Positions 34,424 to 46,686 of a DNA stretch of 64,000 bases are shown here, in pieces; the first letter of the stretch is position 1; each line of letters opens with the position of its first letter. The stretch is from Caryophanales bacterium (lineage in GTDB: Bacteria > Bacillota > Bacilli > Paenibacillales > CANHCR01), in assembly GCA_947459205.1 (NCBI GenBank), contig CANHCR010000006.1:1-64000 (forward strand). The letters run 5' to 3'. Position numbers and translations under genes: made by a program. The notes beneath the pieces were generated by a model. That model made no database searches and was not told the origin of the DNA. It worked only from the letters and a program-made list of their open reading frames with translations.

Positions 34424-35923
34424 TTATGCGTTTTTAATGGACTGATTTTTCAAATCATTTTTGATCAAGTCAGCGGTCAATTGGCCCGATAATGTGACCA
34501 TCGGTACGCCGCCGCCAGGATGCGTCGATCCGCCGACAAAGTATAAATTGCTTAGCAGCGCGCTGCGACTCGGGATTTTGAAACCGCCATTCCGTTTTTT
34601 ATCGGCCGCTACACCATATATCGAGCCACCATTGGAACCGTATAAACTTTGCAAATCGTCTGGGATGAACTGATATTCAAAGACGATATGTTTACGTAAT
34701 TCGGAAGCGCCCATCCGCTCCAATTTGTCGAGCACCAATTCGCGATAACGAGTTCGGTGTTGCTCCCAACTCTCGCCACTCTTCAGCGGAGGTACGTGCG
34801 TCAAGATAAACCAATTCTCACAACCTTCAGGCGCTTGGCTCGGATCAGATTTAGAGGAAATGCCTACATACACGGTCGGATCATCGGCAGGCACTTCTTC
34901 GTCATAAATTTGGCTGAACTCGAGTTGTGGATTTCGTGAGAAAAAGAAATTGTGATGCGTGAACTGCGAATACTCACGATCGACGCCAAGCAGCATTACC
35001 AATCCCGAAACAGTCGGGTTAAACTTCTCTAACTTCTTCGTTTCTTGTTTGGCTTGTGGAACATCGGCAAGCACACTCTGATAGGCCGGTATCGCTTCAA
35101 GATTGCTCACAATAAGGTCGGCGTATACCGTTTCACCAGATTCTAGCGTTAAGCCAGTCGCTTTGCCATTCGTATGCTCGATTTTCGCGACTTTGGCATT
35201 CGTCTGCACCGGCACCTCAAGTTCTTCGAGCAAACGCAACATACCGCGCGCAATGTTGTACATGCCGCCTTTCACGTAGTAGATGCCTAGACCCATTTGC
35301 ACATGTGCAAGTTGCGACAAAATAGCAGGTGAATGGTACGGCGAAGAACCGACATACATGACAAGAAAATCGAACATTTGCTGGATTCGTGCGTCATCAA
35401 AAAAACTTTTCGTGGCCTGATTCACCGTCTTCAGCGGATCCATCGCCAACAACTCGCGTAGTGAATGATGACTGCGCAATTCAGACAGACCAGATATACT
35501 TTTTGCATAGAAACTCTTCATACATAGTTCGTATTGCTTATAGGAGTAACTTAAGTAGTCGAACAATGCAGCACTGTCATTGTGTGATATTTTCTCTAAC
35601 TCGGCAACCATCGTTGGCAAATCACCGCTCATATCAATCGTTGTGCCGTCTTCAAAAATCGAGCGCCACTGTGGCTCGACGCGCATAATTTCAACATAAT
35701 CCGACAACTTTCTGCCAGCCGAGGCAAATAATTTTTCCAGCACCCACGGCATCGTTAAGATGGACGGCCCCGTATCGAACGAATACCCGTTGCCTTCACG
35801 GATGTTCAACTTTCCACCAGCTCGTTCGTTTTTTTCATACACCGTCACATTGTGTCCGTCTGCACGCAAACGAATGGCCGCCGATAAACCTGCCAGTCCA
35901 CCGCCAACTACTGCAACTTTCAT
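34424..35923 (-). CDS. CrtP/CrtNb-type carotenoid oxidase (CrtI family), paralogue 1
   Basis: 499 residues. An FAD-dependent enzyme of the CrtI/CrtN family: N-terminal VVGGGLAGLSAAIRL dinucleotide fold with YEKNERAGGKL, and C-terminal FVGGSTHPGGGVPMV. YVGSSPYHSPA in the middle is shared with the fourth paralogue (45187-46686) and recalls CrtP/CrtNb, which oxidise the end methyl group of diaponeurosporene to an aldehyde. ATG 35923 has AAGGAGG 8 nt upstream. It is the second gene of a minus-strand operon with the methyltransferase. Whether it is an oxygenase or a desaturase needs assay. Confidence 0.85.
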   Translation of the reverse strand: MKVAVVGGGLAGLSAAIRLRADGHNVTVYEKNERAGGKLNIREGNGYSFDTGPSILTMPWVLEKLFASAGRKLSDYVEIMRVEPQWRSIFEDGTTIDMSGDLPTMVAELEKISHNDSAALFDYLSYSYKQYELCMKSFYAKSISGLSELRSHHSLRELLAMDPLKTVNQATKSFFDDARIQQMFDFLVMYVGSSPYHSPAILSQLAHVQMGLGIYYVKGGMYNIARGMLRLLEELEVPVQTNAKVAKIEHTNGKATGLTLESGETVYADLIVSNLEAIPAYQSVLADVPQAKQETKKLEKFNPTVSGLVMLLGVDREYSQFTHHNFFFSRNPQLEFSQIYDEEVPADDPTVYVGISSKSDPSQAPEGCENWFILTHVPPLKSGESWEQHRTRYRELVLDKLERMGASELRKHIVFEYQFIPDDLQSLYGSNGGSIYGVAADKKRNGGFKIPSRSALLSNLYFVGGSTHPGGGVPMVTLSGQLTADLIKNDLKNQSIKNA

Positions 35924-35947
35924 GTGCTCAACCTCCTTAAATTTGCA

Positions 35948-36502
35948 TTAATATAAAAACGGAATGAGGCGTCGGCGTTTTTTTAGCCATAGTGCATACG
36001 AATCACCGAATTGTGCCAACATTGCGCGTTCTTCCAAACGAATTCGCACCATCAAAACAGGGAGCATGAGTAACCAGACAGAGACCAGCCCTAGCCATGT
36101 GTTTAGGCAAAGGGCGATGCCGGATAAACTAAGTAAAATGCCGAAGTAGAGCGGATGCGCTAATAAACGATACGGACCACTGGATACAAGCTGCGTATGA
36201 TCGCTGACTTTAATGTGGCGGGAGAAGTTGTTGCCTAGTTCATGGATGCCCCACCAACGCAGCATAACACCGCTGGCATAAATGATAAGTCCGAGGAATG
36301 GCAACCAAGTACTTTTGTGTTGAATAGAGGTAAGTTGGTAATGAGATGAGATTGCCGAAATGGTGATGCTTACTATGAGTGAACACCAAATGAGCAGGAG
36401 ACTTCGACGTTCGACGACGCCTTCTTTGCTGCGATCGGGACGATGAATGATTAACTCGAGCAACCAAAAGAAAGTGATGAGAGAGAATATTAGGGTGAAC
36501 AT
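35948..36502 (-). CDS. Isoprenylcysteine carboxyl methyltransferase (ICMT)-like membrane protein
   Basis: 184 residues with four or five hydrophobic segments. The C-terminal signature of the ICMT/PEMT membrane methyltransferases is clear: LVSSGPYRLLAHPLYFG, then RIRLEERAML and FGDSYALWLKKRRRLIPFL, which bind S-adenosylmethionine. ATG 36502 is chosen because GGAAGGTG lies just upstream; the GTG at 36511 overlaps that site. It precedes a carotenoid oxidase gene and starts beside the 11-bp repeat array. In this place it might methylate a carotenoid carboxylate, a methyl ester found in some bacillus apocarotenoids. That is an inference. Confidence 0.8.
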   Translation of the reverse strand: MFTLIFSLITFFWLLELIIHRPDRSKEGVVERRSLLLIWCSLIVSITISAISSHYQLTSIQHKSTWLPFLGLIIYASGVMLRWWGIHELGNNFSRHIKVSDHTQLVSSGPYRLLAHPLYFGILLSLSGIALCLNTWLGLVSVWLLMLPVLMVRIRLEERAMLAQFGDSYALWLKKRRRLIPFLY

Positions 36503-36523
36503 GAGGAACACCTTCCCACGATT

Positions 36524-36562
36524 TATATAAGTATTGTATAATAGTTATATCAGTTTTGTATA
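36524..36562. promoter_or_regulatory. 11-bp repeat array, probable CarH/LitR-type operator (array 1)
   Basis: TATATA, TGTATA, TATATC and TGTATA begin at 36524, 36535, 36546 and 36557, exactly 11 bp apart. The array lies between the divergent methyltransferase and aldehyde dehydrogenase genes. CarH-type MerR regulators bind tandem 11-bp repeats with a TGTA-like core over the -35 box of carotenoid genes. No such regulator is in the window. Confidence 0.65.
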
Positions 36563-36586: not shown

Positions 36587-38005
36587 ATGAACATGACAGC
36601 GGAACATATTCAGCAAAAAATGACTCTTGCTCGTGAGGCGCAGCGTGTATGGCGGACATTTTCTGTCAAACAACGTCTGCAATTGATTAAGCAATTGCGC
36701 ATCAAAGTCGTTGCAGCATCGAATGATTGGGTTGAGATTTTTGCCGAGGAGACGAACAAAACGCCGACCGATACGTTGTCCGGCGACGTCTTTATGATTG
36801 CCGGTGCATGCAAATTTTATGAAAAACATGCGGTATCGATGCTTCGACCACAAAGCAAACGTACACCGCTCGAATTTTTCGGACAAACATCGTATGTAAC
36901 CTACGATCCGCTCGGTGTCGTGCTCGTCATTGCGCCTTGGAATTTCCCGCTACAACTAAGTCTCATACCATTAATAAGTGCAATGATTGCCGGCAATGCA
37001 GTCATTCTCAAACCGTCCGAACATACGCCGCGCATTAACGCTCGAATCGAAGAACTATTACTGTCATGCGGCTTTCCGCAGCACTTGGTACAGCTGATTC
37101 ACGGTGACGGCGCTGTCGGCGAGATGTTGATTGACGCGCGACCAGATAAAGTGTTCTTCACTGGTGGCGGATTTGTCGGGCAAAAAGTGTACGAGCGCGC
37201 AGCACGACATATGATTCCGTGTGATCTCGAATTGGGCGGCAATGATGCAATGATTGTCGCGGCTGACGCCAATTTGGAGCGTGCGGCCAAAGCGACTGTC
37301 TGGGGAGCCTTCATGAATTCAGGTCAAGTTTGTATCGGTGTTGAGCGTGTGTACGTTCATCGCACACTTTACGAACCGTTTGTCGAGCGTGTAGTACAAC
37401 TTGCGCAACAGTTAAGACAAGGTACAAGTGCGGAACATGATGTGGGCGGCATGAGCACGCACACTGGATTCGAAAAAGTGAGGTCTGTCGTTGAACTTGC
37501 GGTTCAACAGGGAGCTAAAGTGTTGCTAGGTGGTTATCGTAACGATGTGCAGGCACCGTATTTCCCGCCGACCGTTTTGGTAGATGTGAATGAGCAAATG
37601 AATGTAGTCAAAGAGGAAACGTTTGGCCCCGTGCTGTCCATCATGCGAGTAGACAGTGAAGAGGAAGCGGTGGCTCGCATTAACGCCGGACGTTACGGCT
37701 TAAACAGTTACATATTTAGCTGTAATCTTACCCGAGCCCGCAGACTGGCAGAACAACTGCAAACAGGCAATTGCTATATCAACGACGTCATCACGAACAT
37801 CGGTAACATGCATTTGCCGTTCGGCGGCGTAAAAGCGAGCGGACTCGGGCGCTATCATGGTGCAGAAGGGCTCTACACATTTTGCAATAGCAAATCGGTA
37901 ATGGTCGATAAAGGGCGGTCAAATAGTAAATTCAACTGGTTTCCGTATAGTGCGAAACGCTTATCGTGGTTTCAAAAAATGCTCAATTGGCTGTACGGTC
38001 GCTGA
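36587..38005 (+). CDS. Carotenoid aldehyde dehydrogenase (AldH/CrtNc type)
   Basis: 472 residues, an NAD(P)-dependent aldehyde dehydrogenase. Catalytic Cys in NSGQVCIGVER, general base Glu in LELGGNDAM, cofactor site PWNFPLQL and FTGGGFVG. In staphyloxanthin-like pathways such an enzyme (AldH) oxidises 4,4'-diaponeurosporenal to the acid, and in bacilli CrtNc does so. GGAGATG precedes the ATG. It is transcribed away from the methyltransferase through repeat array 1 and ends 6 bp before the stop of the peroxidase gene. The family is certain; the carotenoid substrate is inferred from context. Confidence 0.85.
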   Translation: MNMTAEHIQQKMTLAREAQRVWRTFSVKQRLQLIKQLRIKVVAASNDWVEIFAEETNKTPTDTLSGDVFMIAGACKFYEKHAVSMLRPQSKRTPLEFFGQTSYVTYDPLGVVLVIAPWNFPLQLSLIPLISAMIAGNAVILKPSEHTPRINARIEELLLSCGFPQHLVQLIHGDGAVGEMLIDARPDKVFFTGGGFVGQKVYERAARHMIPCDLELGGNDAMIVAADANLERAAKATVWGAFMNSGQVCIGVERVYVHRTLYEPFVERVVQLAQQLRQGTSAEHDVGGMSTHTGFEKVRSVVELAVQQGAKVLLGGYRNDVQAPYFPPTVLVDVNEQMNVVKEETFGPVLSIMRVDSEEEAVARINAGRYGLNSYIFSCNLTRARRLAEQLQTGNCYINDVITNIGNMHLPFGGVKASGLGRYHGAEGLYTFCNSKSVMVDKGRSNSKFNWFPYSAKRLSWFQKMLNWLYGR

Positions 38006-38011
38006 ACCGCC

Positions 38012-38488
38012 CTACAACAACTTTTGCAGTTCTTCGCTGATTTTTTCTGGCGTGTCCGTAGGTGCGAAACGTTTGATGACGTTTCCCTCGCGGTTGACAA
38101 GGAACTTCGTAAAATTCCACTTGATTGCTTCCGTTCCGAACAAGCCTGGCGCCTCTTTTTTTAAGAATTTGAACAGTGGGTCGGCATGCTCACCGTTCAC
38201 ATCAATCTTGGCAAACATCGGGAACGACACATCATATTTTAACGAACAAAAGTTGCGAATCTCCTCCTCGGAACCCGGTTCCTGTGCGCCGAACTGGTTG
38301 CATGGAAATCCCAAAACTTCTACGCCTTGCGTTTGTAAGTTGCTGTACAGTTTTTGCAAACCTGCATACTGCGGCGTGAATCCACACTTGCTCGCTGTAT
38401 TCACAATCAGGAGCACCTTGTTTTTGTAGGCGTCGAGCTTAATTGCTTGGCCATCGATGGTCTCGACAGAGAAATCGTAGATTGACAT
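38012..38488 (-). CDS. Glutathione peroxidase family protein (BsaA type)
   Basis: 158 residues. Thiol peroxidase of the GPx family with Cys in place of selenocysteine: [15 protein letters not shown], then [14 protein letters not shown] and IKWNFTKFL. Bacillary members use thioredoxin rather than glutathione and remove peroxides including lipid hydroperoxides. ATG 38488 has GAGGTG upstream; the longer frame has no ribosome site. It is transcribed divergently from the crtN operon through repeat array 2, which suggests co-regulation with carotenoid synthesis as a response to light-generated oxidants. Confidence 0.92.
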
Positions 38489-38536
38489 TGATACACCTCT
38501 TCTTTTAAATTTTCTGTTGCTTAAAACCATGGTTGG

Positions 38537-38576
38537 TGTATAATTATTGTATAATATTTGTATAGATAAGTATAGT
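38537..38576. promoter_or_regulatory. 11-bp repeat array overlapping the crtN promoter (array 2)
   Basis: Three perfect TGTATA cores start at 38537, 38548 and 38559 (period exactly 11), with a fourth weaker GTATAG at 38570. A promoter of TTGTAT (38547-38552), an 18-nt spacer and TATAGT (38571-38576) lies within it, so the array covers the -35 box as CarH operators do. It is shared by the divergent peroxidase gene. Confidence 0.7.
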
Positions 38577-38603: not shown

Positions 38604-40085
38604 ATGGAACATCAACCGTCGGTCGCAATCATCGGCGCCGGACCAGGTGGCTTGGCTGCAGCGATGTTGCTTGCCGCCAATGGCTACAAAGTACAAGTGT
38701 TTGAAAAACATCATCAGGTCGGGGGACGGACATCACGGGTACGACTGGGCGAATACCTTTTTGACCGCGGTCCGACTTTTTTTATGATGCCACATTTGCT
38801 CGAGGAAATATTCCATAGTAGCGGACGTAACTTAAGCGATTATGTGAAGTTGACGAAACTTGATCCGCTTTATCGATTGAAGTTCGGCAATCGTGAATTT
38901 TTACCAACGCAAGACCGTGAACAGATGAAACACCGGTTGGAGGCACTGTTTCCTGGGAGTGCGGCAGGTTATGAACGGTTCATGGATGATCACGAGAAGA
39001 AGTTCGCGCATATTGTTCCGTTATTGCAGCGACCGTTTGCGCAATTGACTGATTATTTGCGTTGGTCGGTGATGAAAGCCCTCCCTTATCTTCACCTTCA
39101 TGAGACAGTTTATGATCACTTGTCTCGATATTTCAAATATGAAGAACTGAAATATGCATTCGCTTTTCAGGCCAAATATTTAGGGATGTCTGCTTGGGAT
39201 TGTCCCGGAACGTTTTCGATTCTTTCTTACCAAGAGCACAAATACGGTTTGTTTCATGTCGAAGGCGGACTAAATCGATTGTGCGCGGCAATGGCGCAAG
39301 TGGTGGAAGAACTGGGCGGCGAGGTGCAGCTGAATGCGCCGGTAGAAGAAGTGGTGGTGGAACGTGGCAAAGCGGTCGCGCTCAAATTGACCGACGGTAC
39401 ATCGGTGGCGGCGGACGAGATCGTCATCAATGCCGACTTCAGCACTGCTGCAAGCAACTTGTTTGCTCCAGGTGTATTGAAAAAGTACAGCGCGGAAAAG
39501 GTTGCGAATAAAAAATATTCCTGCTCCACCTTTATGATGTACCTAGGTGTGAAGCGGACATTTGATATTCCCCATCACAATATATATTTCGCCGGCGATT
39601 ATAAACGAAATGTGGATGAGATGACCAAGCACAAGGTGTTATCTGAGGATGCCTCTTATTATGTTCACAATCCGAGCACTATTGATTCTACTTTGGCGCC
39701 ACAAGGTAAGTCGGCGTTGTACGTTTTGATGCCGGTGCCAAATTTGCAGGCGGATGTAGATTGGAATGAGCATAAGCAGGCATTTCGCGATTCGTTCATT
39801 GCGCGTATGGAACAACAACCAGAGTTTGCTGGTCTATCGCAAGACATTGAGGAAGAAATGGTACTTACGCCACATGATTGGATGGCGGAACATGATGTGT
39901 ACCGTGGCGCCACATTCAGCATGGCACATTCGCTCGATCAGATGATGTATTTTCGACCGCATAACCGCTTCGAAGAACTTTCGAATGTGTATCTCGTTGG
40001 TGGTGGAACACATCCCGGCAGCGGTTTGCCGACCATTTTTGAATCAGCAAAAATTAGTACGCAATTGATTCTTCAAAAGCAATGA
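38604..40085 (+). CDS. crtN: Diapophytoene (or phytoene) desaturase
   Basis: 493 residues, the paralogue closest to classical CrtN/CrtI. FAD fold [19 protein letters not shown] with [16 protein letters not shown], and the C-terminal signature [19 protein letters not shown]...[18 protein letters not shown]. It introduces double bonds into diapophytoene (C30) or phytoene (C40) to give the coloured chain; chain length cannot be told. GGGGGAAGG precedes the ATG. It is the first gene of a seven-gene operon (38604-46686) with 16 bp or less between genes, most of which overlap, so translation is coupled. Transcription starts in repeat array 2. Confidence 0.9.
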
Positions 40086-40101
40086 CTTGGTGGTGTGGAA
40101 G

Positions 40102-41580
40102 ATGAGGAATCAAAGTGAAATCGATGTAGCGATTGTCGGTGGCGGAATTGGCGGCATGGTAGCGGCGTTACTGTTGCGGAACAAAGGCTGCAGTGTCACG
40201 ATTTATGAAAAAGAGTCGCGTTTAGGTGGCAGGTTAGCTTTCCATCGACATGATGAGTGGCGGATTGACCAAGGCCCGACGGTCGTACTCCTACCGCAGA
40301 TGATTCTGTCTATCTTGGAGGGAGCAGGCGTTGATTGCACAAAACTTAAGAAGCAATTGACGCTGTGTGAACCTATGGCGCGCATCCATTTTGCTGATGG
40401 TACGGTGTTTCATAAGTATCATGATGTGGCGCAACAAATGGCGGAAATCGAGCGCGCATCACCTGGTGAGTCAGTGAATTTCCAAGCATACATGACAGAC
40501 CTCAAAAAAATGTATGATGATGCAAAACCAGTGTTTCTCGACCGTGCCTTTCTCCGCAAACGAAATGTACTTTCATGGCGTACTTTGTCTACCTTGTGGC
40601 GTGCAAAAGCACATCTGTCAGTGGAACAATTGGCACGCAAATATTTTCGAGATGAGCGACTGCGTCATGCATTTTCGTTGCAGACGCTATATATCGGTGG
40701 CGCTCCAAAAGGTACGCCAGGCCTGTACAGTCTCATTCCTTATGCCGAGCAAGCTTTCGGTATTTGGTATTTGCAAGGAGGATACGCCACGCTAGCCGAA
40801 ATGCTAACGGAAGCTTTAGAAGCATGTGGCGTGAATGTTCGCTGTGGATATCCTGTGGAACGGTTACTCGTCACAGGTAGTCGCTGTGAAGGCGTGGTGG
40901 TGGGTGGCCAAGCTTACAATCATGATGTCGTTGTATACAATGGCGATTATCCGAATTTGCAAAAAGTTGCAGGTGTGGCGGAACATGATCGAGATCAACG
41001 CCAGTGGCAACCTTCATCCGGTTGTGTACTGCTTTACTTGATGGCGGATTGCAGATGGGAGCAGTTGACGACGCATCAGTTTTTCTTGCCATCACAGTTT
41101 GATGAACAACTAGATACCATTTTTAAGCAAAGCAAAGTACCGTCACATCCTGCATATTACGTGTTTCAACCGCAAACGATTGATGAGACAGTGGCGCCAT
41201 CAGGGAAGACGCTATTGTATGTGTTAATCCCGGTGCCTACGAAGATTGATGGACAATGGAGCGAAGTGGCGGAACAATTATCTGAGCAAGTACTGCTTGA
41301 TTTGCAAACTCGTGCATTGCCAGGTTTGATGGAACACATCGAGTGGCTAGACATTCGCACCCCTGCTGATGCGCAGTCGTTCGGACTGTATGGTGGCGGA
41401 AGTTTCGGATTGGCGCCAACTTGGTCGCAATCAGCCATATTTCGTCCGCAAATTAAACATCGAGAGATCGAAGGATTATATGCAGTGGGAGCTTCAGTAC
41501 ACCCAGGCGGCGGCATACCGATTGTCATGCAAGGTGCAAAACTGATGGCGGAGCATCTACTGAAGGAGATGAGAGTATGA
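40102..41580 (+). CDS. CrtI/CrtN-family carotenoid desaturase, paralogue 3
   Basis: 492 residues from ATG 40102 (GGTGGTG upstream; the TTG at 40087 is an alternative). FAD fold VAIVGGGIGGMVAALLLRNKG, then DQGPTVVLLP; the C-terminal SQSAIFRPQIKHREIEGLY and GASVHPGGGIPIV are CrtN-like. It is more divergent than the previous gene and has lost the HSLDQ part of the signature. It may do a further desaturation step or form a heteromer with CrtN. It begins 16 bp after crtN and overlaps crtM by ATGA. Confidence 0.82.
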   Translation: MRNQSEIDVAIVGGGIGGMVAALLLRNKGCSVTIYEKESRLGGRLAFHRHDEWRIDQGPTVVLLPQMILSILEGAGVDCTKLKKQLTLCEPMARIHFADGTVFHKYHDVAQQMAEIERASPGESVNFQAYMTDLKKMYDDAKPVFLDRAFLRKRNVLSWRTLSTLWRAKAHLSVEQLARKYFRDERLRHAFSLQTLYIGGAPKGTPGLYSLIPYAEQAFGIWYLQGGYATLAEMLTEALEACGVNVRCGYPVERLLVTGSRCEGVVVGGQAYNHDVVVYNGDYPNLQKVAGVAEHDRDQRQWQPSSGCVLLYLMADCRWEQLTTHQFFLPSQFDEQLDTIFKQSKVPSHPAYYVFQPQTIDETVAPSGKTLLYVLIPVPTKIDGQWSEVAEQLSEQVLLDLQTRALPGLMEHIEWLDIRTPADAQSFGLYGGGSFGLAPTWSQSAIFRPQIKHREIEGLYAVGASVHPGGGIPIVMQGAKLMAEHLLKEMRV

Positions 41581-42452
41581 GTATTCAAAAGCATCTGCAG
41601 GAATGTGAGAAGATGATTAGCGTCGGTTCCACCACGTTTTATCATGCCTTTTCATCGTTGCCTAGTCCGCGACGTGAGGCGGTGTATGTCATTTATTCGT
41701 TTTGCCGAATGATTGATGATGCTGTTGATGAACCGGACAAATCACAATACACACTCGAGCAACTGCGCGACTTGTTCGATCGTTTGGAAACGGCGGAAGG
41801 TCATTTTATCTGGCCTTCTTTACGCTGGTTGTTCGAGCGTTTCCCGATTAGTAAGCACCCATACTATAGTCAGATGGAGGGTCAAGCGCGCGACCGTTAT
41901 CTTCTTCATTATGAAACGTTAGAACAATTTGAAGAGTATTGCTATTTGGTGGCGGGAACCGTTGGTGAAATGCTGTTGCCAGTGTTGCATGATACGCCAA
42001 CAGATGAAGTCGCACAAGCCGGTATTTATTTAGGCAAAGCGATGCAAATCGTTAATATTATTCGAGATGTCGGCGAAGACCAACTGCGTGGACGACGCTA
42101 TTTGCCTCTAGAGGTGATGAGGCGCCATCAATATACGGAAGAAGACTTTGCAACTGGCCGAATCAACCAAGCGTTTCAAGATGTGGTGGAGGATTTAGCG
42201 AACATGGCGGGACAATGGTTTGTCCGTGGTCTTCATCATTTGGAGACGTATCCGCTGAACAGTGCCTTCTGTATTCGTTTGGCCGCGGAAGGTTATGGCG
42301 CCATTCTCGACGTTGTACGTGCGAACGGATACGATGTGTACAACAAACGGGCAATCGTGCCAGATTCAGTGAAAAAGCAATTGGTGCTCAAACTGTCAAA
42401 AGAGTGGGCGCAATCCAAGCAAGTTGCGCAGGAAGGCAGTGAAGTCTCTTGA
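41577..42452 (+). CDS. crtM: Squalene/phytoene synthase family, probable diapophytoene synthase
   Basis: 291 residues. Condenses two prenyl diphosphates (FPP to 4,4'-diapophytoene, or GGPP to phytoene), the first committed carotenoid step. Both Asp-rich motifs are present: RMIDDAVDEPD and RDVGEDQLRGRRYLP, plus SFCRMIDDAVD and IVNIIRD. The length and the CrtN/CrtP/AldH neighbours favour the C30 type, and no GGPP synthase is nearby. ATGA overlap with the preceding gene and TTGA overlap with the next. Confidence 0.9.
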   Translation: MSIQKHLQECEKMISVGSTTFYHAFSSLPSPRREAVYVIYSFCRMIDDAVDEPDKSQYTLEQLRDLFDRLETAEGHFIWPSLRWLFERFPISKHPYYSQMEGQARDRYLLHYETLEQFEEYCYLVAGTVGEMLLPVLHDTPTDEVAQAGIYLGKAMQIVNIIRDVGEDQLRGRRYLPLEVMRRHQYTEEDFATGRINQAFQDVVEDLANMAGQWFVRGLHHLETYPLNSAFCIRLAAEGYGAILDVVRANGYDVYNKRAIVPDSVKKQLVLKLSKEWAQSKQVAQEGSEVS

Positions 42453-43225
42453 TTTGGATCACGCGACTATTTTGGTTTTGGTATCTAGTCGGTTTCATAC
42501 TCATGGTATTCTGGCAGGTGCCGGATGCATTGCTGTTTTCCAAAAGTTTATTCTTTTTGTTTTTTGCAACGTATGCGTTCTCATTGCTCATTAAAGATTG
42601 GACACCGAGTTTGATGCAAATGGCGTGGATCATCATCCCCGTTGGATTTTTATCGCTTTGGATTGAAGCGATCGGCACAGCAACTGGGTGGCCATTTGGT
42701 CACTATACATATGGCGAGTCAATTGGATGGAAAATCCTCGATGTGCCGATTACGATTAGCTTCGCGTGGCTTGCAATCATGACGACAGTTATCTTGTTTT
42801 CGACAAGCGGTCCCCGGTGGTTGCGCGCCTTCGAAGCGGGCATTTGGGCGATGTGTTTCGATTTGGTGCTTGACCCAGCTGCAGTGGTGGAAGGCTTTTG
42901 GCACTGGCATGCAGTGACGGTAAGCGCTGACCGTTCGTTACTTGAGATTTTATGGTCAAGCGCGGCGTTTTATGGGATACCGTTCAGTAATTTTGTTTCT
43001 TGGTTCGCCGTTGCATTCGTATTATCTTGGTTCTATCCGGTGCAAGAAACAGGGCAAAAGATGAAAATTCGAGCGCTTCGTTTATATCAAGCGATGATCA
43101 TCATGTTCGCTGCGTTGTGCGTGAAAGGCGGCCTCTTTTGGCCGGTCGTATTGGCGATTTTGATTATTGTCGCGAGTGAATGGAGGGTGCGCCATGATTC
43201 GCGCGGCGGAGAGCAAGTGGTTTAA
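42449..43225 (+). CDS. Carotenoid biosynthesis membrane protein (CruF/DUF422 type)
   Basis: 258 residues with about seven membrane segments. The DUF422 motifs can be seen: EAIGTATGWPFGHYTYGES, FDLVLDPAAVVEGFWHWH, and GIPFSNFVSWF. Members include CruF, which hydrates the end of gamma-carotene or lycopene-like chains, and the bacterioruberin hydratase. In this operon it may add water to an acyclic end group. TTG start, overlapping the crtM stop (TTGA); AGGAAGG lies 12 nt upstream. The next gene overlaps it by 32 nt. Confidence 0.82.
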   Translation: MIWITRLFWFWYLVGFILMVFWQVPDALLFSKSLFFLFFATYAFSLLIKDWTPSLMQMAWIIIPVGFLSLWIEAIGTATGWPFGHYTYGESIGWKILDVPITISFAWLAIMTTVILFSTSGPRWLRAFEAGIWAMCFDLVLDPAAVVEGFWHWHAVTVSADRSLLEILWSSAAFYGIPFSNFVSWFAVAFVLSWFYPVQETGQKMKIRALRLYQAMIIMFAALCVKGGLFWPVVLAILIIVASEWRVRHDSRGGEQVV

Positions 43226-44012
43226 GCGAGTTTGGTATCTTTATGTGCGCTACTATTTACTGTGGCGCCATTTTTCTATTTTGCGCTTAAAAGGCAAGAT
43301 TGACCCGCCAACAATGATTACAAGCGGAGACGGGGGGAGACAACGACCGGTCATCTATATTGCAAACCATTCGAACTGGTGGGATGGTTTGTTGGCGTTC
43401 GATGCGTACTTGCCACGCACTACATATAAACATTTCGTGATGATGGATGAAAAGCAGTTGCGCCACTACCGGTTTTTCACGAAGCTTGGCGTTTTTTCGA
43501 TTGATAAAACAAAACCGTCTGCGGTGGTGGAGTCATTGCAATACGCCGCGGAGTTGCTGCGCAAGCAATATGCAGTCTGGATTTTTCCACAAGGAGATAT
43601 TGAACATTTGGAAAAGCGCCCAATCCGTTTTTTCTCTGGCGTGGCGTATTTATTACAGCAATGTCCCGATGCAGTGGTGGTGCCAGTGACGATGTATTAC
43701 TCATTTTGTCACCGGCAAAGACCGGAAGCTAGTATCTGGTTTGGCGATGCGGCGTCGCAACCTTGGCAACAATGGGAGCGAAAAGTGACGACTGCGCACT
43801 TGCGAGATTTGTTGCAAACACAACTTGATGAACATCGCAACTTCTATATGGATGGCGTACTGGGTGGACCGGAAGAACAGGCAGAGCACGCGGAGCAAGT
43901 AGAGCAAACGGTTCATGGATTTGAAACAACGCTCCGTGTAAGGACGACGGACGAGTGGTTTGTCCAATTCAAAAGGTGGGTGAAATCGTGGTTTATGCGC
44001 TCACGACGATAG
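43194..44012 (+). CDS. PlsC-type acyltransferase of the carotenoid operon
   Basis: 272 residues from ATG 43194 (GGAGGG upstream). A 1-acyl-glycerol-phosphate-acyltransferase fold: HSNWWD is the HX4D catalytic motif and FPQGD stands for the usual FPEG. In bacillary carotenoid clusters such an enzyme attaches a fatty acid to the sugar of the glycosyl carotenoid; the staphylococcal counterpart is CrtO. No signal peptide; membrane-associated. It overlaps both neighbours. The family is sure; the acceptor is inferred. Confidence 0.85.
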   Translation: MIRAAESKWFKRVWYLYVRYYLLWRHFSILRLKGKIDPPTMITSGDGGRQRPVIYIANHSNWWDGLLAFDAYLPRTTYKHFVMMDEKQLRHYRFFTKLGVFSIDKTKPSAVVESLQYAAELLRKQYAVWIFPQGDIEHLEKRPIRFFSGVAYLLQQCPDAVVVPVTMYYSFCHRQRPEASIWFGDAASQPWQQWERKVTTAHLRDLLQTQLDEHRNFYMDGVLGGPEEQAEHAEQVEQTVHGFETTLRVRTTDEWFVQFKRWVKSWFMRSRR

Positions 44013-45190
44013 TCGTATTGCTGGTTTTGCAATGGTTGTTCGTGGTGTGGAATCTCGCCCACTTACGTTCGTTGCCACCGGTGAGTGGTAAACGAATCGT
44101 ATATGAGGGAGACCGACCGCTTCTTAGTCTGCTCATTCCGGCACGGAATGAGGAGCGCAACATTGAAGCGTGTCTAGATTGTGTGCTTGCTGCGGTCGAG
44201 CGAGCAGTGGCGAGTGGCGCCGAGATCGAGGTGCTCGTACTCGATGACCGCTCCGAGGACGCGACAGCGCAGCTCGTGGCGCCGCGCGCCGCCGCGCACC
44301 CCCGCCTGCGGCTGCTGGCGGGGGACGACTTGCCCCCCGGCTGGATGGGCAAGTCGTGGGCGTGCCACCAACTCGCGCGGCACGCCCGCGGGCGGCGCCT
44401 GCTGTTTCTCGACGCGGACGCACGCCTCGAGCCGGATGCGCTCGTCCGCGTCTGCGAAACAGGCGCACCACTTGAGCGCGGCATGATCACCGGGTTCCCG
44501 CGCCAAGTGGTGCGCGGCGCCATGGAGCGGCTCGTGGTGCCGCTCATGGCGTTCACCATCGCTTGCCATCTGCCGCTTCGCTTCGTCAGCCGTTCGGCAG
44601 ACGCGAAATTCGCGGCGGCACATGGCGCCTTCATTCTTATCGCGCGCGACACCTACGACGCATGTGGCGGACATGAACAGTTCCGCCACCACTTGGTCGA
44701 TGATGTGATGCTCGCTCGTGCCGTCAAGCGCGTCGGTCATCCGTTAGAGCTAATCGACGTGACCGACCTCATCAATATGCGGATGTACGAGACGGCGGGT
44801 GAAGTGTGGCGTGGTTACAAAAAAAACATATTCCCCGGTATGGGGCGCAACCATCTCGTATTTTTGCTCATTTTTCTTCTATACGCCGCCATGTACATTG
44901 CACCATTTATCGTTTTCATATATAGTTTGCTATCTTACACTGTATTTCCTGAGACAGCATCCATCGTGGCACAAGCGCCAATCGCCAACACCATACTCAT
45001 ATGGAGTGGCGGCGCCTATTTGCTCGGCGTCCTCATCAAAGCAATCATCGATTACAAGAACCGAATCGCTTGGTGGCATGCTTTCTTCTTGCCTGTCGCA
45101 ATTTTGATGATGCTACTTATAATGCTCGATTCGTGGCGCACTTCGATTAGCGGTCAAAAGTATGAATGGAAGGGGCGACATTACTCATGA
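43988..45190 (+). CDS. Family 2 glycosyltransferase of the carotenoid operon (CrtQ type)
   Basis: 400 residues from GTG 43988 (AAGGTGGGTG upstream). An N-terminal membrane helix, then a GT-A fold: LLIPARNEERNIEACL, VLVLDDRSEDAT, FLDADARLEPDAL (DxD-like metal site), HHLVDDVMLARAVK, and two or three helices at the C-terminus. CrtQ-type enzymes glucosylate the carotenoid acid. Bases 44221-44580, coding for residues about 79-198, are near 72% GC by hand count, while the bases after 44880 are below 40%. The reading frame is intact across both edges. It overlaps the next gene by ATGA. Confidence 0.85.
   Translation: MVYALTTIVVLLVLQWLFVVWNLAHLRSLPPVSGKRIVYEGDRPLLSLLIPARNEERNIEACLDCVLAAVERAVASGAEIEVLVLDDRSEDATAQLVAPRAAAHPRLRLLAGDDLPPGWMGKSWACHQLARHARGRRLLFLDADARLEPDALVRVCETGAPLERGMITGFPRQVVRGAMERLVVPLMAFTIACHLPLRFVSRSADAKFAAAHGAFILIARDTYDACGGHEQFRHHLVDDVMLARAVKRVGHPLELIDVTDLINMRMYETAGEVWRGYKKNIFPGMGRNHLVFLLIFLLYAAMYIAPFIVFIYSLLSYTVFPETASIVAQAPIANTILIWSGGAYLLGVLIKAIIDYKNRIAWWHAFFLPVAILMMLLIMLDSWRTSISGQKYEWKGRHYS
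44221..44580. other. GC-rich island inside the glycosyltransferase gene
   Basis: By hand count A and T make up 99 of 360 bases here, so about 72% GC, with 87% in 44281-44340. Flanking genes are much lower (44881-44940 is 37%). Third codon positions are almost all G or C. This is a sharp local change, not a gene-wide one. Confidence 0.9.
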
Positions 45191-46686
45191 AGTCAGCGGT
45201 CATCATCGGTGGCGGCATCGGCGGTTTATCTTGCGCTATCCGATTGGCGGGTGCCGGCGTGCGCGTCACCTTGCTTGAACAGCAGGCGACGCTTGGCGGC
45301 AAACTTCAACGCGTGCAACTCGGAAGTTATCAATTTGACCGTGGACCGAGTACCATCACGATGCTCGAGTCATTCGCGAAAATTTTTAAAAGTGTCGGGC
45401 GCCACATCGACGATTACATCCATTTCTATCCGCTTACGCCACTTGCACGTAACGTGTTTGCTGATGGTCACACTGTCGATTTGACGACCTCAATAGAGGC
45501 GATGCAACAGCAGATCGCTGCCTTCGCTCCGCAGGATGCTGCCAATTATCCGCAGTTCATGGCGGAGGCGCGCAAATTATACGCCATTTCAAAAAAAGCA
45601 TTTCTTCATCAGTTGATGCTTGGTTGGCACGATAAACTGAAACCGTCACTTGCCGTTTCGTTTCTGCAAATTCATCCATTCACCACGCTGCAAAAACTAT
45701 TGCTACGATACTTCAAACATCCCAACACGTTAGCGCTCTTCGGTAGATACGCCACCTATGTTGGCTCATCGCCATACGAGGCGCCGGCTATTTTTGCGAT
45801 GATGGCTAGTCTAGAAGCGGAGGAAGGAATTTATGGCGTCTACGGCGGGACGTATGAAATCGTTTGCGGTTTGGAAAAACTAGCAATAGAACTAGGAGTC
45901 GAAATCCATAAATCTTGCCGAGTGCAGCGAATCATCATTGAGCATAAATGCGCCACTGGCGTGGAAAGTTCTGCTGGCACATTTCAAGCTGATGTCGTCG
46001 TTGCAAATGCAGACGCGCTGACGGTATACGCCACAATGATCGAAGAGCGCCATCGTCCCGCCATGTCTGATAAGAAAATCGCAAGTTATGAACCATCATT
46101 ATCGGGCTATGTCGTGTTAGCTGGCGTGAATAAAGTGTATCCGCAACTACTCCACCACAATGTCTACTTCCCGCCTAATTATGAACAGGAATTCAAGCAA
46201 CTTTTCAAAGAGAAAACACCGCTGACCGAACCGACCATCTATATATGCTACAACGGACACGACGATCGCGAGGTTGCGCCACAAGACTCGAGCAATCTTT
46301 TTATTCTCGTCAATGCGCCGTCACTACCGGAATCAACAGGATTTCAATATAACGGACCGTTTACAGAGTCATTTTCCGAGCAATATGGCGAACATGTGTT
46401 GCAAATGCTCGAAAAGCGTGGCTTAAACGATTTACGATCATCGCTACAAGTTCAAGCAACGTTCACACCGGTTGACCTTCATCAGCAAACGGGCGCACAC
46501 CGCGGCGCCATCTACGGCATTTCTTCCAATCGTGCGCAGCAAACCTTCTTCCGCCCAGGCAACCGTGCGCAAGACATCGACAACTTGTGGTTCGTTGGTG
46601 GCACCACGCATCCAGGTGGCGGCACACCGATTGTTGCACTTTCTGGACAACTGGTGGCGGAGCGCTTGTTGTTGAACTTGCATTAA
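45187..46686 (+). CDS. CrtP/CrtNb-type carotenoid oxidase (CrtI family), paralogue 4
   Basis: 499 residues from ATG 45187 (ATGA overlap with the glycosyltransferase gene). FAD fold VIIGGGIGGLSCAIRL, GGKLQRVQ, DRGPSTITM; the YVGSSPYEAPAIF segment and FVGGTTHPGGGTPIVALSGQ show it is closer to the 34424-35923 paralogue than to crtN. Two CrtP-like enzymes might oxidise both ends of a diapolycopene, or one may be a desaturase with another specificity. It is the last gene of the seven-gene operon. No terminator is seen before glnS. Confidence 0.85.
   Translation: MKSAVIIGGGIGGLSCAIRLAGAGVRVTLLEQQATLGGKLQRVQLGSYQFDRGPSTITMLESFAKIFKSVGRHIDDYIHFYPLTPLARNVFADGHTVDLTTSIEAMQQQIAAFAPQDAANYPQFMAEARKLYAISKKAFLHQLMLGWHDKLKPSLAVSFLQIHPFTTLQKLLLRYFKHPNTLALFGRYATYVGSSPYEAPAIFAMMASLEAEEGIYGVYGGTYEIVCGLEKLAIELGVEIHKSCRVQRIIIEHKCATGVESSAGTFQADVVVANADALTVYATMIEERHRPAMSDKKIASYEPSLSGYVVLAGVNKVYPQLLHHNVYFPPNYEQEFKQLFKEKTPLTEPTIYICYNGHDDREVAPQDSSNLFILVNAPSLPESTGFQYNGPFTESFSEQYGEHVLQMLEKRGLNDLRSSLQVQATFTPVDLHQQTGAHRGAIYGISSNRAQQTFFRPGNRAQDIDNLWFVGGTTHPGGGTPIVALSGQLVAERLLLNLH

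Follow-up and report, generated by a model that had tools for sequence, protein, structure and literature searches.

The three TGTATA cores upstream of the crtN carotenoid operon, in a 64,000-nucleotide stretch of Caryophanales DNA (hereafter, the window), represent, with a probability that we put at about 90%, an operator of CarH (LitR), at which repression would depend on AdoB12 and be released by light; the same regulator would act at no fewer than eight promoters of the genome. By analogy with the CarH family, binding, repression and a response to light and B12 are most likely. In the dark, AdoB12-loaded CarH oligomers would bind the tandem 11-bp repeats and, by covering the crtN operon promoter, would block RNA polymerase. 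Light would cleave the Co-C bond, whereupon CarH would release the operator and the carotenoid genes would be transcribed. The same regulator, probably in the form of both paralogues, would govern its own genes, aldH, a photolyase, folE and two further genes.

Such a system would constitute a candidate B12-light regulon in a Gram-positive lineage, in which photolyase, folate synthesis and carotenoids are tied to one operator sequence, and would offer a natural pair of CarH sensors together with a set of graded operators. A literature search yielded nothing specific to this lineage and, with subscription journals mostly outside its reach, no publications on this regulon in the relatives of Paenibacillus.

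The array at the crtN promoter

The crtN operon (38604..46686, + strand; annotated with Pfam and NCBIfam) encodes three CrtI-family desaturases/oxidases (starts at 38604, 40087 and 45166), a squalene/phytoene synthase (41577), a CruF-like protein (42449), an acyltransferase (43167) and a glycosyltransferase (43955), all on the + strand. Divergent from it, across the array, is a glutathione peroxidase gene (38012..38488, - strand, with the ATG at 38488 assigned in this analysis), a homologue of which, 53% identical, lies directly downstream of carH in one relative (L059).

The predicted operator occupies 38537..38564 (+ strand) and consists of three perfect TGTATA cores with 11-bp spacing, at 38537, 38548 and 38559, exactly where the earlier note on this DNA had placed them. 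These are the only TGTATA hexamers in the 115-bp, A-T-rich intergenic region. The CarH operator type calls for three or more direct repeats of 11 bp in tandem, and the array has them. Read on the minus strand, the cores are TATACA, that is, TnnACA; this motif is found on the antisense strand only, the sense TGTATA carrying one mismatch per unit. Among 210 units from relatives, which had been picked for their likeness to TGTATA, positions 1 to 3 are T, G and T at frequencies of 0.93, 0.93 and 0.95. With up to three mismatches allowed, the three-unit pattern finds three matches in the window, whereas 100 shuffles give 0.02 on average. A weaker fourth unit had also been proposed. A similar hexamer, AGTATA, does exist at 38569, but it follows after 10 rather than 11 bases and is out of register; together with the proposed -10 element, TATAGT at 38571, it spans 38569..38576 (+ strand), one base off register. 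The hexamer in register, at 38570, is GTATAG, which does not match, and the fourth unit was rejected as a member of the array.

Any overlap of the operator with a -35 or -10 element is putative, and two promoter alignments compete at crtN. The pair favoured previously, TTGTAT (38547) and TATAGT (38571), is present with its 18-nt spacer and agrees at 8 of 12 positions. It was set aside as the preferred promoter in view of an alternative with 9 of 12 matches, TTGCTT-16 nt-TATAAT (38517..38544, + strand), which places the -10 inside repeat 1; the proposed overlap with a -35 box is not established. The 9/12 match does not itself beat shuffled flanks. Of 15 crtN promoters, 14 from relatives and one from the window, 13 have an in-register -10 within a repeat as part of their best-scoring -35/-10 pair; L087 and L045 do not fit this pattern. 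Because the repeat contains TATAAT, an in-register -10 is favoured by construction, and the flanks were therefore shuffled as a null. The summed promoter score of the crtN set, which includes near relatives, is 141 and exceeds all 500 shuffled-flank nulls (maximum 137); for the eight promoters of the window's own genome, the summed score is reached by 3.6% of the nulls. These comparisons suggest that in relatives a repeat usually encloses the -10 of the crtN promoter.

Eight arrays and two CarH paralogues in one genome

In the 2.52-Mb, 73-contig assembly the exact three-unit pattern has a single match, the crtN array. Relaxing the pattern to two mismatches yields eight matches (none in the reversed control), and to three mismatches 13 matches (one in the control). 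With the two-unit pattern TTGTATAANNNTTGTATAA and at most one mismatch there are 11 matches against 0+1 in the reversed control; all 11 lie inside eight arrays, and two adjacent good units occur nowhere else in the assembly. According to the earlier note, many hits unlinked to pigment or stress genes would have spoken against a regulon, and these 11 matches bear its expectation out. Each of the eight arrays closely precedes a start codon, at a distance of some 20-70 bp (starts assigned here from sequence). The targets, named by Pfam and NCBIfam, are the crtN operon, aldH, carH1 (contig C13), carH2 (C21), a cupredoxin-domain lipoprotein (C18), an ABC1/UbiB-family kinase and, read on the other strand, a photolyase (both C53), and folE (C55). 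Carotenoid, photolyase, folE and carH genes make up most of this list; the place of the kinase and the cupredoxin in it is less obvious, and we know of no light role for either type of protein. Several arrays stand between genes that diverge: besides those of crtN and aldH, the carH1 array also faces a second photolyase gene in addition to a small gene, and the folE array an FAD-binding protein.

The aldH array corresponds to what had been described as an independent copy at the other carotenoid promoter. A copy does exist at 36524..36562 (+ strand), yet it is degenerate, reading TATATA, TGTATA, TATATC and TGTATA in 11-bp steps. Beside it is a promoter match, TTCCCA-18-TATAAT, at 36513-36542. 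The aldehyde dehydrogenase gene follows at 36587..38005 (+ strand), and on the divergent side an ICMT-type methyltransferase gene (35948-36502, - strand) is paired with one for a CrtI-family protein (34424-35923, - strand), the pair spanning 34424..36502. Scored with R1, a sequence model of the eight arrays, the aldH array reaches 13-14 bits, whereas the seven better ones reach 22-30 bits. Those seven stand at E<5e-4, well separated from a weak tail, while aldH, at 0.16 and 0.30, is not. Since the model was built from the same arrays, its scores serve to rank them and are no proof.

The idea of a small regulon of carotenoid promoters thus holds as far as the shared array is concerned and, in the light of the eight-array genome scan and of the order-wide recurrence at carH and crtN described below, extends beyond the two promoters originally envisaged to at least eight, two of them those of carH. 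That the array belongs to a regulator common to carotenoid promoters, plausibly a light- and cobalamin-dependent one, is well supported by the sequence comparisons.

Several weaker sites were noted in the same scans. Three-mismatch matches on C33, C41 and C67 were too weak to be counted as arrays, and the R1 tail (C66, C5, C12, C50 and C2) was likewise not counted. Close to the end of contig C46 (L168:1468-1525) begins an ORF that by eye resembles uvrB. It follows GGTATA-N5-TGTACA; any third unit would fall past the contig end, and the site is a possible ninth promoter. On C67 (L028, near 1918-1971), two TATACA units are followed by two TGTATA units on a minus-strand reading. These two sets of direct repeats mirror one another and precede a small ORF whose N-terminus is hydrophobic. 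On C13, the second photolyase and a 160-residue ORF without a Pfam match (L022:1141-3020) lie divergent from carH1, and a further weak array, with three mismatches, is found at C13:15979.

The two CarH paralogues, CarH1 (L022:3086-3979) and CarH2 (L024:3239-4159), are unlinked to the window. Each combines MerR, B12-binding_2 and B12-binding domains, has Thermus CarH (5c8d, 3whp) as its best sequence match in the PDB, retains the AdoB12 motifs Wx9EH and ExHxxG, and is preceded directly by an array with one mismatch. The NCBIfam model NF052513 (TransRegCarH) scores the two at 140 and 150 bits, below its curated cut-off of 400, which is a database equivalog threshold rather than a biological definition; homology is clear despite it (E = 7.8e-41 and 8.4e-44). 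The genome also encodes a PduO-type ATP:cobalamin adenosyltransferase. The paralogues differ at the position of Thermus His132, the upper B12 ligand of the light state (PMC10442372), where CarH2 has His and CarH1 has Glu. Among the order relatives 27 of 29 have Glu at this position (of the two His matches one, L090, is spurious), as do 53 of the 58 named Bacillota with a motif match, the two sets overlapping. By contrast, His occurs in 9 of 13 matches at the remaining loci, mostly Chloroflexota. In all, 9 of 109 loci gave no motif match. Judged by this residue, most Bacillota CarHs could not form a bis-His state.

Recurrence across the order and competing explanations

The survey of relatives covered 296 genomes of the order of Paenibacillus, including the window's own, which alone represents its genus. 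Exact TGTAYAx3 occurs 20 times, in 16 of these genomes, and 7 times in the reversed control. Outside the window's genome there are 17, 10 of which (in 8 of 15 genomes) stand beside carH, mostly between carH and crtN. The other seven, in seven genomes, have no full-length regulon homologue nearby (one has a 44-residue CarH-like fragment) and are about as many as the reversed control gives. CarH2 homologues (E<=1e-20) occur in 121 of the 296 genomes. Among 30 carH loci, the best-scoring of these 121 genomes and not independent of one another, an array with up to three mismatches lies within the flanking 350-420 bp at 22 (21 of 29 without the window's own genome), counting either side, where shuffles reach even four mismatches in 2-3%. 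Two of the eight loci that lack a flanking array have a one-mismatch array upstream of a folE gene adjoining carH; 6 of the 29 other loci show none, whether close to carH or in front of a neighbouring folE. A TGTAYA array with up to two mismatches is present at 26 of 80 named loci. The arrangement carH-array-crtN is conserved across the order; in the window's genome, linkage of carH to crtN is absent. In another family of the order (G010, L066:116-1383), a homologue of the FAD-binding protein, an array, folE and carH follow in a row, and this combination of folE with an FAD-binding neighbour resembles the folE locus of the window's genome.

An A-T-rich intergenic region, and a repeat that itself contains TATAAT, might suggest that the cores are chance repeats, TGTATAAT units arising from resemblance to a -10 box. 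This is scarcely credible, as the scans of the genome and of the order already contradict it: the 11 two-unit matches stand against 0+1 in the control, and in other genera arrays recur in front of the orthologues. Moreover, none of 20,000 mononucleotide shuffles of the crtN intergenic region reaches the array's score, the best, obtained once, having two mismatches where the real array has none. It is very unlikely, too, that the operator belongs to a different regulator, for example another MerR-family protein. CarH binding is a prediction, and three of the five MerR_1 matches in the genome are not CarH; against this stand the arrays at both carH promoters and beside carH in many relatives, as well as the 11-bp tandem layout, which is that of published CarH operators, direct repeats placed across -35/-10 elements (PMC9304148, PMC8156234).

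It is very unlikely, in our estimate, that CarH activates these promoters instead of repressing them, by acting in MerR fashion from within a long -35/-10 spacer. CarH does belong to the MerR family, classical members of which activate at promoters with such spacers, and some of the promoter alignments here have spacers of 18 nt. Set against this, the arrays of relatives extend over the probable -10 and the sequence beyond it, and described CarH proteins repress from sites over -35/-10 (PMC9304148). Repression by CarH remains the reading that we prefer.

Polarity of the repeats and known systems

In Thermus thermophilus and Bacillus megaterium, the CarH operators comprise three and four tandem 11-bp direct repeats with the consensus nnnnTnnACAn (PMC9304148, PMC8156234). 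Compared with these, the crtN array has its TnnACA on the strand opposite to transcription, and one of its repeats carries TATAAT. The CarH/CarA operators of Myxococcales, arranged as DR1-dr2-DR3-DR4-dr5, have sense-strand TnnACA and the -35 element TTGACA inside DR4 (PMC9304148). Like them, the arrays described here mix good and degenerate 11-bp repeats and may hold a promoter hexamer inside a repeat; unlike them, they have the reverse polarity, and in relatives the enclosed hexamer would mostly be the -10.

The class II LitR regulon of Pseudomonas PplR/PmlR is LOV-dependent, includes phrB, folE, cryB and ufaM, and uses the site T(G/A)TACA-N12-TGTA(C/T)A (PMC9758184). In both systems, in the present one by prediction, a single light regulon takes in photolyase, folE and the gene of the regulator itself, and the half-site letters are very similar. 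The present one differs from what is described there in its 11-bp direct repeats and in CarHs that keep the AdoB12 motifs; the crtN repeats, direct and 11 bp apart, do not match TRTACA-N12-TGTAYA.

Polarity appears to vary with lineage, a difference that bears on how CarH blocks transcription. For arrays with at most one mismatch upstream of carH, the first 20 named loci (mostly Paenibacillus) give 14 antisense and no sense arrays, the next 36 (mostly other Bacillota) 8 sense and 6 antisense, with two loci counted in both, and the last 24 (Bacillota mixed with Chloroflexota) 3 sense and no antisense, whereas shuffles give fewer than 0.1 per group. A tentative extension, which we regard as possible but doubtful, is that the CarH operator of the Paenibacillus order has been turned round with respect to transcription, each repeat (TTGTATAAT) doubling as a possible -10, and that two sensors, CarH1 with Glu and CarH2 with His, read the same eight operators by different photochemistry, so that the response to light and oxygen would be graded. 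If this were true, the repressor site and the site of promoter melting would be one sequence. A carH promoter of Priestia aryabhattai carries four TnnACA units on the sense strand, of which the fourth was recognised by eye.
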